From: Thermoplasmata archaeon
GTDB lineage: Archaea > Thermoplasmatota > Thermoplasmata > Methanomassiliicoccales > Methanomethylophilaceae
Direction: 5' to 3'
Length of the DNA stretch: 64,000 nt
NCBI GenBank assembly: GCA_015063125.1
Contig: SUTB01000005.1
Location: forward strand, 1 to 64,000
In this document: positions 16,662 through 23,930 of the stretch, in pieces
How positions within the stretch are numbered: the first letter of the stretch is position 1
Layout: each line of letters starts with the position of its first letter
The notes under the pieces: generated by a model
Told to the model about the DNA's origin: nothing
Databases searched by the model: none
The model's input: only the letters and a program-made list of their open reading frames with translations
Translations under genes and position numbers: made by a program

Positions 16662-16785
16662 GGTTGACAGCGTGCCTGAGTTCCCGTACGCTTGCGCAAT
16701 ACAGTACAGACAGGTACGCGGGAGGGCTTTACTGCCGGGTTCGGAATGGGACCGGGTGTGACTCCTCCGCTATGGCCGTCATACC
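16662..16785 (-). rRNA. rrf: 5S ribosomal RNA
   Basis: The minus strand carries the universal 5S core CCATTCCGAACCCGG and the loop/helix arrangement of archaeal 5S. Terminal helix I forms between the 5' GGT(A)TGACGGC and the 3' GCTGTCAACC, which fixes the ends. Length about 124 nt. The gene stands alone, with no 16S or 23S in the window, as in Thermoplasmata where rRNA genes are scattered. A TATA box at 16807-16818 is spaced to start transcription at the 5' end. Confidence 0.93.
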
Positions 16786-16805
16786 AATACAGGGGATAGG
16801 GGAGG

Positions 16806-16821
16806 AGTATATAACGTTTGC
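16806..16821 (-). promoter_or_regulatory. 5S rRNA promoter
   Basis: Minus-strand CAAACGTTATATACTCC; the TATA core is centred about 26 nt before the 5S 5' end. It shares the AAACGTT upstream element with both tRNA promoters in this window. Confidence 0.7.
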
Positions 16822-16921
16822 TGGGCACCGATTGACGGGGTAAGGCCCCCGTGCGTAGGAGGACGCCCGGGTGCCTTATTTCGGGAGCCGTACCAATAGG
16901 CAAGCAATACGGGTCCCGAAC
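16822..16921 (-). ncRNA. Candidate structured small RNA upstream of 5S
   Basis: About 100 nt with dense complementarity and no coding frame. An 11-bp hairpin with one G/G mismatch pairs 16881-16892 with 16908-16919. A three-way junction follows: the closing stem 16824-16829/16870-16875 encloses hairpins 16835-16840/16847-16852 and 16853-16856/16863-16866. On the minus strand the last loop reads CCTCCT, which is complementary to Shine-Dalgarno sites. A TAAATAG box at 16943-16949 would start transcription near 16920. Strand and even expression are inferred; no known RNA family is recognised. Confidence 0.4.
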
Positions 16922-17035
16922 GATTCTGTCATATCATATTACTATTTAGCAGGGGTAGGAAAAGAAGTCCACAATAATGAACATCTGGATGGAGTTACCT
17001 TGACACAAAATTGTCGAGTTGGAGGGATTTAGAGG

Positions 17036-17066
17036 GGTTGCTCCCCCCAAGGAGGATGAGGGGAGC
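17036..17066 (-). terminator. Hairpin terminator after mtaB
   Basis: GCTCCCC (17040-17046) and GGGGAGC (17060-17066) form a 7-bp hairpin about 20 nt beyond the mtaB stop codon. The trailing sequence is C-rich, not T-rich, so it may be a processing or stability hairpin. Confidence 0.5.
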
Positions 17067-17087
17067 TGTTGGGGTTTATAGGTGATC

Positions 17088-18488
17088 TCAGAGACCGTAG
17101 TTCTTGAGGTTGTAGTTGGGGACGATCTCCTTGTACTCCTTGTGGGCCCACTCGGTGAACTTGTCAGTGTCATCGGGAAGGGCGGTGAGCTTCTTGTGGA
17201 TATCCTGGAGTGTCTCCAACTGCTTGACGGTGAGGCCAAGCTCCTTGGATTCGTATCCCTTGAGCAGTATCTCGGCAGCCTTGATTCCGGCTGCCCTGGA
17301 CCTGAGGTAGAGGTCGTTTCCGTTCTCGGCGATGACCTTTCCGATCTCCCAGGCGTGGTCGTATGCGAGGATGTATGCCTCGGGTCCTCTGTACCTGTCT
17401 GCGTACATGTACAGGTCCCTGAGGGTCTTCTCCTGCTTGAGCTGGATGGCGGTGTTCATCAGGGCCGCCTCGTATCCGATGGATCCGAACCAGCACTGGA
17501 CGGAGGTTCCTCCGAACTCGGGGTGGTACTCGACGGACTCGTTGGACCAAAGGTCGCAGCACTGTGCGATGAGATTACCCTGCAGATCGCAGTGTGCGCA
17601 CTGGCAGTTCTTTCCCTCCTGGGTGGTGGGCTTTCCTGCGATGGCCTTGACGATAGGGCCTTCGTAACCGCAGTCCTTGTCGGGTCCGAGCGCTCCGCAC
17701 TCCCAGGCGCAAAGGGTCCTGGCTGCGGAGATGGCACGGGTGACGGCGGAGAAGGTCCTCTGGACATCCTGGTCCATCATTCCTCCGGCCATGAACATGG
17801 AAACGTTCGCTCCGGAACAGTTGGTGTCTCCACCAGGTGTGCAGTGGTTCCTCTTTGCGATGTCGACCATCTGCTCCCAGGTCCAGGTCATGTCGATGGA
17901 TCCGAGGTATCCGACACCGTATAGGAAAGCGACGATGTCTCCGTTGGTGACGGCGTAGTCTGCGAACTCCTTTCCTCCGACTGACTCGACGGACAGGTTG
18001 TCGGCTCCGTTCTCGCATGCGATGTCGCAGCACTCGAAGAACTTCTCGGGGTATGCGTGGACGGTGTCCATCCCGGGCCTGAGTCCGTGGTCGGCCTCAC
18101 GCTGATCGGGGATGGTCTGTCTCGTACCGCAGTTGAGTCCGTACTCCTCATGGTATTTCTCGCACATCTCCTCCTGGCCCGCGACGACGGGTGCGGAGAG
18201 CTTGGCCTGGTTCATCTGGGAGACCCACTCGGTCTCCAGCTGGACGTTGGGGAATCCGACGGTGACAGCCCTGTCGAGGATGTCCTTTGTGATGTAATCT
18301 ACATACTCCTTCCTGAGCTTCTCGGGGTCCTTCTCGGTTCCGGGCCTGGGGGCGTAGTTGATCTCAGGGACGACGTATCCTGCGCCGAGCTTCAGACCGA
18401 ATCCGTAGGATACGGGGTGCTTAGAGTGCCCCATTACCATGTCGTCTGCGCTCTCGTATGCCATACTCGTGTATCTTGTTACTGCCAT
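17088..18488 (-). CDS. mtaB: Methanol:corrinoid methyltransferase MtaB
   Basis: A 466-residue cytoplasmic zinc enzyme that cleaves the C-O bond of methanol and transfers the methyl group to the cobalt of MtaC, the first step of methanol-dependent methanogenesis. Length and sequence match MtaB throughout, including SVESVGGKE, GGDTNCSGANVSMFMAGG and the Cys-rich CAHCDLQGNL region that supplies zinc ligands. The start at 18488 follows AGGAGGT located in the last codons of mtaC, so the two are translationally coupled. No in-frame TAG is needed, as expected for the non-pyrrolysine methanol system. mtaA is not in the window. Confidence 0.96.
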   Translation of the reverse strand: MAVTRYTSMAYESADDMVMGHSKHPVSYGFGLKLGAGYVVPEINYAPRPGTEKDPEKLRKEYVDYITKDILDRAVTVGFPNVQLETEWVSQMNQAKLSAPVVAGQEEMCEKYHEEYGLNCGTRQTIPDQREADHGLRPGMDTVHAYPEKFFECCDIACENGADNLSVESVGGKEFADYAVTNGDIVAFLYGVGYLGSIDMTWTWEQMVDIAKRNHCTPGGDTNCSGANVSMFMAGGMMDQDVQRTFSAVTRAISAARTLCAWECGALGPDKDCGYEGPIVKAIAGKPTTQEGKNCQCAHCDLQGNLIAQCCDLWSNESVEYHPEFGGTSVQCWFGSIGYEAALMNTAIQLKQEKTLRDLYMYADRYRGPEAYILAYDHAWEIGKVIAENGNDLYLRSRAAGIKAAEILLKGYESKELGLTVKQLETLQDIHKKLTALPDDTDKFTEWAHKEYKEIVPNYNLKNYGL

Positions 18489-19540: not shown

Positions 19541-21055
19541 ATGTCATCGATTGTCTATCTGAGAAATCGGAAGTCCAATACTATTTATGCTTATCTGAAC
19601 GAATCCGTTTGGGATCCAGATAAGAAGAAGTGCGTCAACAAGCGCAAATGCATAGGACACGTGGATCCGGGGACCGGCGAGATTGTCCCGAACAGGGCCA
19701 GCAAGACAAGAGATTATCCCACAGTCCGTTCCGTTTTTGTCAGCAAGATGTTCGACAAGGTGGCCAAGGACATGCTGCTCTCCGAGACCCTGGCGTTATC
19801 GTTCCCGGATGATTGGAAGAAGATAATGACCGTAGCGTACTATCTCGCATCCACCGGAGGGGAGCTGCAGTTTTGCAAGCAGTGGAGCGAGAACAACAGG
19901 GCACCCTACAACTCCATCATGACTGAGCATGTCATGAACGAGCTGCTGTCCAACATCACCTCCAACGGCATCTCCCTATTCTTCACGCTATGGAAGCTAC
20001 GTGTGCAGCCCGACGAGACATACGAGAGCTCCATCAGCTTCAGCGACTCGGAGAACGATATGAGTGAGTATTCGAAGAGGTACAATATCGATTTCAACAT
20101 CAACAGCAACAGGACGAAGATGGACATCTTCTTCAGCACCAAGAACAACATACCGTTGTGCTATCAGCTGTCCAATATGGCCACTGGCCACAAGATCGGC
20201 GATTACGATGTATACAGGGAGAGCTTCAGCAGGCTGTCGTCATTCATGGACGAGGAGAACGGGGATCCGCTCGACCCTTCACTGGTGGCTTACGCAGGCA
20301 GCAACCTCATCGTCCGTACCCGTCCCGACAACGAGTTCGTCTCCGGGATGATCGAGAAGGCCGAACCGTCGATGACCAATCCGGAGAACTACAGGATACT
20401 GTTTGGAACCCCACTGTTCATAGAAACGTACATGCACCATGTGAATGGGAGAAAGCTCTACATCCACATCTTCTTCGATCCGAACAAGGCCGTCCAGGAT
20501 CTGTCCACATTCATCTCCATCATCAATTTGTGCAAGTACGAGTTGGAGACCAACCGTCCCGTCGAGGGTCATCAGGAGCTGTACGACAAGTACCTGATAG
20601 TCACGGAGGACGAGAGAGGGAGGCAGGTGGTCTCTCATAACAGCGAGGCCATCCTCCACCACAACCAGTACCTAGGTTACTCGACGATCATCTCCAACTT
20701 CACCCGCAACCCGTCGACGGCGCTGATACCGTTTCTCCAGAACAAGACGATCACGGGAATGTTCGAGAACATGAAGAACGAGTACGACAGTACGACATTC
20801 AACCTCTTCACCGAATCCAACTACCTGAGCAGGATATTCATCCAGTTCCTGGCGCTGATCCTGAGGATGCAGGTCGAGAACATCATGATATCCAAGAAGC
20901 TGAACAAGACCCTGACCTACAAGCAGCTGATTGCCGAGCTGTCATCCATCAGGACGATAAACGTGCCGGGCACGAAGAAACCCATGCAGACGATGCTGAG
21001 CGACACTCACATACGCATTCTGGATGCGTTCGAGCTGGACTACGATATGGAATGA
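19541..21055 (+). CDS. Transposase-derived protein (IS1634/IS4-like), probably catalytically inactive
   Basis: A 504-residue intact frame. The first 55 residues (VYLRNRKSNTIYAYLNESVWD, then KRKCIGHVDPGTGEIV) and the last 120 (FIQFLALILRMQ, LTYKQLIAELSSIR, LSDTHIRILDAF) match long IS1634-type transposases. In that family the three DDE residues lie in DITS-, V(M)DxGFYS- and VEKGFDDMKN-like motifs; the matching places here read SISFSD, no DxGFYS at all, and ITGMFENMKN, so all three seem lost. There is no room for a right-hand terminal inverted repeat, since hypC ends at the next base. It is divergent from mtaCB. Possibly a domesticated DNA-binding protein. The alignment is from memory. Confidence 0.75.
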   Translation: MSSIVYLRNRKSNTIYAYLNESVWDPDKKKCVNKRKCIGHVDPGTGEIVPNRASKTRDYPTVRSVFVSKMFDKVAKDMLLSETLALSFPDDWKKIMTVAYYLASTGGELQFCKQWSENNRAPYNSIMTEHVMNELLSNITSNGISLFFTLWKLRVQPDETYESSISFSDSENDMSEYSKRYNIDFNINSNRTKMDIFFSTKNNIPLCYQLSNMATGHKIGDYDVYRESFSRLSSFMDEENGDPLDPSLVAYAGSNLIVRTRPDNEFVSGMIEKAEPSMTNPENYRILFGTPLFIETYMHHVNGRKLYIHIFFDPNKAVQDLSTFISIINLCKYELETNRPVEGHQELYDKYLIVTEDERGRQVVSHNSEAILHHNQYLGYSTIISNFTRNPSTALIPFLQNKTITGMFENMKNEYDSTTFNLFTESNYLSRIFIQFLALILRMQVENIMISKKLNKTLTYKQLIAELSSIRTINVPGTKKPMQTMLSDTHIRILDAFELDYDME

Positions 21056-23009: not shown

Positions 23010-23399
23010 ATGATCTGCCCAAACTGTGGAAGACAAATGAGTGATGGAGAATTATTCTGCACTGGGTGTGGGATGAGGTTGAACAACGCACCAGGCTATG
23101 GGGCAGCCCCCATATATTCAGCACCTCCAGTATATGATGCACAGAATCAGCAAAACGATCCTGATAGGCCTGTCAATCCATCCAAGGCAGTCCCGTTGAT
23201 ATTGGGATTTTTCCTTGGTCTTTTTGGAGTATTATTGGCAGTGCTCACGTACAACGGGAACTATGGGAAGTACACCCGTAATCCAACGGTGAACGCATTG
23301 TTATGGAGTATAATCGGAACATTGATCCAGATACCTATAATTGCCGCGTTATACTACCTGGTAATAATGCCCATGATTTCCAGTTTGTTCGGTATGTGA
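23010..23399 (+). CDS. Zinc-ribbon membrane protein
   Basis: A 129-residue protein with an N-terminal zinc ribbon (CPNCGRQMSDGELFCTGCG), a Pro/Tyr/Ala-rich linker of about 30 residues, and two membrane segments at roughly residues 58-77 and 95-120. The same layout (zinc ribbon, low-complexity linker, C-terminal membrane helices) is seen in the larger protein at 36186-37070. No enzymatic motif is present; function unknown. Codon use and AT content differ somewhat from neighbouring genes. Confidence 0.78.
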   Translation: MICPNCGRQMSDGELFCTGCGMRLNNAPGYGAAPIYSAPPVYDAQNQQNDPDRPVNPSKAVPLILGFFLGLFGVLLAVLTYNGNYGKYTRNPTVNALLWSIIGTLIQIPIIAALYYLVIMPMISSLFGM

Positions 23400-23446
23400 A
23401 ATCACTGAATAAATCGACGGCTCTGCCGTCTTCTTCCCACACATGG

Positions 23447-23525
23447 CTGTGGATGGAGACACCATCCACAGCGGCCATATGTGTTTCTAAGTCGAATGTA
23501 CCCGTCATGCCTGAAGATCTCGTTG
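23447..23525 (-). pseudogene. alaX 5'-end fragment with fold-back repeat
   Basis: Positions 23463-23525 repeat the first about 20 codons of alaX (22810-22874) with roughly six mismatches and a 2-nt deletion that shifts the frame. Directly beside it, CTGTGGATGG (23447-23456) and CCATCCACAG (23462-23471) form a perfect 10-bp inverted repeat, of which the second arm is alaX-derived. The rest of the gene is missing. The hairpin could also terminate the upstream gene. Confidence 0.65.
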
Positions 23526-23649
23526 CTACCGCATCTGTCCTTGCGATATAGAATCGGAAAATGAGGGTGTGACATGATAGTTTACAGCGACTTTTTGTGA
23601 ATTCTCAAGGATAGCATTATATCCTCATATGAAATCGATACAATGTTCC

Positions 23650-23930
23650 TGAAGGATTTAGGCCCCTGAAGGGGCCTTGGTTCTCAAAGGAACCATCTTA
23701 GCAATTCGGACATTGTCCGGATTGCCGAGAGGACGAGGGAAACGAATTCGAACTTAGTTCCCCTGTCCTCTTCCTTTGCAGGTATTTAATTACCTCCTAA
23801 GGATTAGGTACGGGCAAACAGTCCGGTCGCGATAGGAAGTCCTTCGCGACGGACTTCCTTCCCCGCCCATTAGGATACTGGGGTTTCCAAGATTTAATGA
23901 CCATAAGGGCTTTCTACGGTCTATAGATTG
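23650..23930 (-). ncRNA. Candidate structured RNA, family unknown
   Basis: About 280 bp without a credible coding frame but full of hairpins: 23661-23666/23671-23676, 23679-23683/23690-23694, 23701-23711/23715-23725 and a long arm 23728-23741/23758-23771. Near the other end, 23820-23832 pairs with 23844-23855 (12 bp), while 23834-23842 can instead pair with 23851-23859 (9 bp); the two are mutually exclusive. A TTTAAATAA box at 23943-23952 points toward it on the minus strand, and the GC hairpin at 23661-23676 would end it. aspS has its own TATA further on. No match to RNase P, SRP or known riboswitches was recognised. Confidence 0.45.

Follow-up and report, generated by a model that had tools for sequence, protein, structure and literature searches.

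The window analysed here is a stretch of 64,000 nucleotides on contig SUTB01000005.1 of a Thermoplasmata archaeon, with an assembled genome of 1.65 Mb in 8 contigs. Along the minus strand, the order of features is mtaC, mtaB, a double hairpin, 5S rRNA, isopentenyl phosphate kinase and type 2 isopentenyl-diphosphate isomerase. The genes mtaC, mtaB and the kinase share one orientation with the 5S rRNA gene, and they would fit a methanogen of the Methanomassiliicoccales. The double hairpin lies downstream of mtaB on the same strand, 168-247 nt after the stop codon. An initial annotation had placed a 100-nt region (16822-16921, hereafter the element) directly upstream of the 5S promoter, and the minus-strand 5S rRNA gene (16783-16662) indeed follows. 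The features of the locus are as follows.

19272-18490, minus strand: mtaC, corrinoid protein MtaC (best NCBIfam hit, below the curated cut-off)
Ending at 17088, minus strand: mtaB, methanol--corrinoid methyltransferase MtaB (best NCBIfam hit below the curated cut-off; Pfam MtaB model passed)
17040-17066, minus strand: separate hairpin, 22-48 nt past the mtaB stop codon (inverted repeat scan)
16933-16947, minus strand: weak TATA-like site AAATAGTAATATGAT (matrix score 6.95; highest-scoring on the minus strand upstream of the element)
16880-16920, minus strand: hairpin 1, with 13-nt arms (12/13 paired, one C.C mismatch) and 15 nt between them
16841-16878, minus strand: hairpin 2 of the two-hairpin form, with 16-nt arms, two mismatches and a CCTCCT loop of 6 nt
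16857-16862, minus strand: the loop CCTCCT, identical to the anti-Shine-Dalgarno stretch at the 3' end of the genome's 16S rRNA
16824-16875, minus strand: three-way junction, competing with hairpin 2 for the same bases (minus-strand fold minimum)
16806-16820, minus strand: strong 5S gene promoter CAAACGTTATATACT (matrix score 16.4, itself in the training set)
16662-16783, minus strand: 5S rRNA gene, one of two genome copies (84.9 bits, Rfam model)
16567-15797, minus strand: archaeal isopentenyl phosphate kinase (above the NCBIfam curated cut-off)

The segment 16780-16814 on the promoter side of the 5S gene recurs with 94% identity at the other 5S copy. At gathering scores, Rfam models recover the 5S rRNA and two tRNAs in the whole window and nothing more. 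The hairpin close to mtaB also has CCTCCT (17055-17050, minus strand) between its arms. An IS1634-type transposase gene (19541-21055; E 2e-19, below the curated cut-off) lies beside mtaC.

Two inverted repeats and competing folds

The element consists of two adjacent imperfect palindromes, which are a genuine structure. Scored with +1 per match, -2 per mismatch and a loop of at most 20 nt, both repeats reach 10. Only 6 repeats in the 64-kb window score at least 10, and three first-order Markov shuffles of the window yielded 0, 1 and 1 repeats at that score. The stems had been described as near-perfect, which overstates their pairing: complementarity is 88% in the 16-nt pair and 92% in the 13-nt pair.

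The predicted minimum for the minus strand is a hairpin followed by a three-way junction, as originally proposed, with a folding energy of -44.1 kcal/mol for the 100 nt (z -2.54; 2/200 shuffles fold as well). The junction is closed by the stem GGCACC/GGTGCC, and its arms are the CCTCCT hairpin (GCGT/ACGC) and an ACGGGG/CCCCGT hairpin. The rival two-hairpin fold, in which hairpin 2 forms as a 14-pair hairpin, reaches -40.3 kcal/mol over the whole 100 nt and is thus 3.8 kcal/mol weaker. For the 3' part alone, the values are -25.5 for the three-way junction and -24.3 for hairpin 2. An equally stable fold is predicted for the plus strand (-45.8 kcal/mol, z -2.86), hence folding gives no strand preference. 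Windows of 100 nt with energies of -44.1 kcal/mol or better number 42/6390 on the plus and 51/6390 on the minus strand of the window, coding DNA included. In a 464-kb genome sample (the window together with 20 further 20-kb stretches, with genes called by a simple codon-usage caller), 8/2758 overlapping intergenic 100-mers from both strands reach this energy, the element included. The fold is therefore unusual for intergenic DNA, though not unique.

A CCTCCT loop, a weak promoter-like site and the 16S rRNA 3' end

In the modelled minus-strand folds, CCTCCT (16862-16857) exactly fills a hairpin loop, in agreement with the initial annotation. Such a loop might belong to a trans-acting minus-strand small RNA, the CCUCCU of which would cover ribosome-binding sites. 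Archaeal precedents exist. For sRNA154 of Methanosarcina mazei, loop 2 is reported to mask a ribosome-binding site, and the RNA is described as highly conserved in Methanosarcina and experimentally studied (PMC5867862). The likeness consists of a methanogen host, a stable looped structure and one loop reported to carry an anti-ribosome-binding-site sequence. This likeness is one of description, and the putative RNA of the element was found in one species only. A second RNA of M. mazei, sRNA162, masks a ribosome-binding site, and its target is reported to act in the methanol/methylamine switch (PMC3510493). It pairs through an unstructured linker rather than a hairpin loop, and the resemblance is again one of description, not sequence.

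The stable fold, the exactly filled loop and the 11 nt shared with the 3' end of 16S rRNA all favor such a small RNA, as does an A+T-rich TATA-like site upstream. The site was scored with a 15-nt promoter matrix built from 31 training sequences, namely the upstream regions of 30 tRNA loci (from 43 tRNA matches) and the 5S promoter. Its score of 6.95 is reached at 117 window positions (top 0.1%), yet falls below all 31 training promoters, which score from 7.8 to 17.5 (median 12.0) without cross-validation. Intergenic DNA has 4.9 sites with scores this high per kb of strand, a figure that counts true promoters as well. The promoter site begins 36-43 nt ahead of the mature RNA in 28/31 training sequences. 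Using this tRNA/5S spacing, and assuming that mature ends lie near transcription starts, the predicted start falls within the 5' arm of hairpin 1, at ~16910. The TATA-like box had been called correctly spaced. It is instead weak and would need to lie ~10 nt farther upstream to start an RNA at 16921. An RNA running from 16911 to the 5S border would fold no better than shuffled sequences (z -0.57). No terminator is obvious: runs of at least four T are absent between the element and the 5S gene on the minus strand, and likewise downstream of the element on the plus strand up to 17090. In the genome sample, only 25/92 gene 3' regions have T5 within 120 nt.

The scope of an anti-Shine-Dalgarno loop in this genome would be modest, judging by gene starts. 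AGGAGG stands within 22 nt upstream of the start in 24/440 called genes compared to 23/2100 random 22-mers, an enrichment above chance yet limited. A 10-mer complementary to the loop region is found near the start of 1/440 genes. Combined with the lack of any relative found outside the species, these features make a free anti-Shine-Dalgarno small RNA an unlikely reading, which we rank third. If it were a true anti-Shine-Dalgarno RNA, the element would represent an evolutionarily young regulator, specific to this species and placed next to a methanogen's genes for methanol use.

CCTCCT itself is common in the window (76 occurrences versus 51 expected). The 16S rRNA of this genome ends in GGATCACCTCCT, and the identity of the loop with it continues five bases into the 16S trailer. 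The resulting 11-nt sequence CCTCCTACGCA (16862-16852) has exactly two genomic copies, one in the element and the other at the 3' end of 16S. This could suggest that the element copies or mimics the 3' end of 16S rRNA and serves as a decoy to factors that bind or cut there. A reversed control pattern of CCTCCTACGCA is likewise present twice, though. Across 41 genomes, the own one included, CCTCCTACGCA has matches in 26. Of 30 loci read, 16 are 16S ends, one is the element and 13 lie elsewhere (13/29 apart from the element), most of which resemble coding DNA by eye. Furthermore, the local alignment score of 23 between the 16S end and the element is equalled or beaten by 94/18476 windows of 100 nt from the sampled genome. 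Derivation of the element from the 16S 3' end is thus unsupported by alignment statistics. Given the control pattern, the non-16S loci and these statistics, we treat the 16S likeness as a coincidence until shown otherwise. In a more far-reaching proposal, a species-specific archaeal RNA made next to 5S would copy the last 16S bases and the first trailer bases (CCUCCUACGCA) in its hairpin loop and arm, and would titrate Shine-Dalgarno sequences or act as a decoy in 16S 3'-end maturation. We consider this proposal highly improbable, and the decoy for 16S binders or cutters more improbable still. Two loci from two other species of the same genus (L178 in G004 and L179 in G021) have CCTCCTACGCA in hairpin-forming sequence around position 1501; these copies are probably chance occurrences unrelated to the element.

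Relatives of the element and of its gene neighborhood

Searches for relatives consistently recovered a single species. Rfam 15 had no match in 16780-17090 up to E 5, which the initial annotation had anticipated. A BLASTN search of 60 genomes with 131 nt around the element gave, outside its own genome, eight matches of 17-34 nt with E of at least 0.0035. Among 102 genomes of the family, only the own genome (G000) and G105 of the same species match in BLAST, the latter with 100% identity over 104 nt. Covariance models of both folds, each built from one sequence, retrieved the same two genomes from this set, and the model of the three-way fold recovered only these two from 147 genomes of the order. 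Strict filtering in these covariance-model runs may have let a very diverged relative escape. The comparison for compensatory changes comprises only these two sequences, which are identical over the element. Among the genomes searched, the double hairpin is restricted to one species, and so is its mtaB-5S arrangement. Exact 20- and 24-mers of the element are absent from GTDB contigs, and an exact 20-mer from viral contigs, collections from which the own or very near records were possibly left out. Literature searches on Methanomassiliicoccales and Thermoplasmata RNA and on Methanomethylophilus alvus transcriptomes, as well as on archaeal anti-Shine-Dalgarno small RNAs, M. mazei sRNA and archaeal Term-seq, returned no listed title or abstract opening that deals with the element.

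The 5S surroundings were compared across 50 genomes with 5S loci, often without every copy and with ~1 kb on either side. The kinase is encoded downstream of 5S in 29/50 genomes, in 23 of them within 260 nt, the own genome included. An mtaB gene beside 5S is found in the own genome only. The distribution suggests that the 5S-kinase linkage is older than the mtaB-5S arrangement. A comparable inverted repeat stands upstream of 5S in 8/72 regions, the element included; hence, hairpins upstream of 5S are no rule. BLAST comparisons of the 5S-upstream stretches of relatives with the element gave no match with E <0.8 outside the own genome. Together with the repeat counts, these comparisons lead us to reject the idea that relatives share a conserved hairpin ahead of their 5S genes. 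A different species of the genus (G009, locus L058) has a different hairpin with 20-nt arms, 54-116 nt upstream of 5S, which precedes the 5S-kinase unit in the same place as the element. In five genomes (G016, G019, G028, G033 and G043), the 5S matches are short, at 82-88 nt, yet span the whole model; these copies have perhaps internal deletions or lie at assembly edges.

The two strains of the species differ at 108/4451 non-coding and 470/30055 coding aligned positions. The element lies within a 180-nt run free of differences. Across the aligned part of the window, this run ranks only fifth in length among non-coding runs of its kind. As four longer runs exist, the run is no proof of constraint, and strain conservation is uninformative as evidence for it.

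A hairpin without present function could have arisen as a rearrangement remnant or a mutational product where mtaCB met the 5S unit. The restriction of both the element and the surrounding gene order to one species would fit such an origin, as would the transposase gene at 19541-21055 and the fifth rank of the identical run between strains. Against it, two adjacent repeats scoring 10 are unlikely by chance. The element is also single copy (one copy at E <= 0.001, the second match being the 5S promoter), which rules out a repeated mobile palindrome such as REP or MITE. A plasmid or phage origin finds no match in the collections searched. We rank a neutral remnant second, as a tentative explanation that is somewhat more probable than the small RNA.

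Intergenic hairpins and a possible role in cis

Strong hairpins are frequent between the genes of this genome. The 464-kb sample contains 52 repeats scoring at least 9 in 74,436 nt of intergenic DNA, compared to 20 in ~390 kb of coding DNA. This corresponds to a ~14-fold higher density between genes, with RNA genes unmasked and genes missed by the caller (e.g., 23010-23399) counted as intergenic. Gaps of at least 20 nt between called genes hold 50 repeats, of which 11 are in convergent, 26 in tandem and 13 in divergent gaps (1.5, 0.70 and 0.55 per kb, respectively). Of the 37 convergent and tandem repeats, 23 have a stop codon no more than 100 nt away. Many of the repeats near stop codons are G+C-rich and only 5-30 nt away. 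Tandem repeat pairs like the element occur three times in the 464 kb, the element included. The element is one of many strong intergenic hairpins in this genome and, as it stands, illustrates that hairpin-rich intergenic DNA can mimic an RNA gene.

The element resembles the 3'-end hairpins of prokaryotic mRNAs as a strong, G+C-rich hairpin following a gene on the same strand. It differs in comprising two hairpins and in its position 168-247 nt past the stop, beyond another hairpin and near the next promoter. We suggest a lineage-specific cis-acting hairpin element in the gap between mtaCB and 5S, present in read-through transcripts, as the first-ranked reading, with a probability of roughly 0.45. 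On the minus strand, which carries all of these genes, the mtaC-mtaB operon precedes the element and the 5S-isopentenyl phosphate kinase unit follows it. If functional, it would act in cis as a folded RNA within mtaCB read-through transcripts. The double hairpin might stabilize or trim the 3' ends of mtaCB transcripts, and it might stop these transcripts from running into 5S.

The shared orientation of mtaC, mtaB and the kinase with 5S argues for this role in cis, as does the intergenic excess of repeats, which is densest in convergent gaps and concentrated near stop codons. Further points in favor are the frequent place of the kinase downstream of 5S (29/50 genomes) and the presence of mtaB beside 5S in this genome alone. 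Several features argue against it. A hairpin of mtaB itself is already present at 17040-17066, and the mtaB mRNA could end ahead of the element, at the TTTT of 16963-16960. The distance from the mtaB stop codon lies outside the 100 nt that hold 23/37 of the repeats. Thirteen repeats fall in divergent gaps, where no gene ends, and comparable repeats are rare in 5S-upstream regions (8/72, the element included).

Another hairpin-rich gap in the window, at 23440-23870, precedes the aspartate--tRNA ligase gene (24057). Below threshold, Rfam models for SAM-III (23633-23701, 22.4 bits versus 45) and snR46 (22.4 bits versus 43) align there. The gap contains hairpins at 23446-23472, 23701-23725, 23728-23771 and 23834-23859, and the plus strand of 23690-23780 folds at -36.5 kcal/mol (z -5.4).
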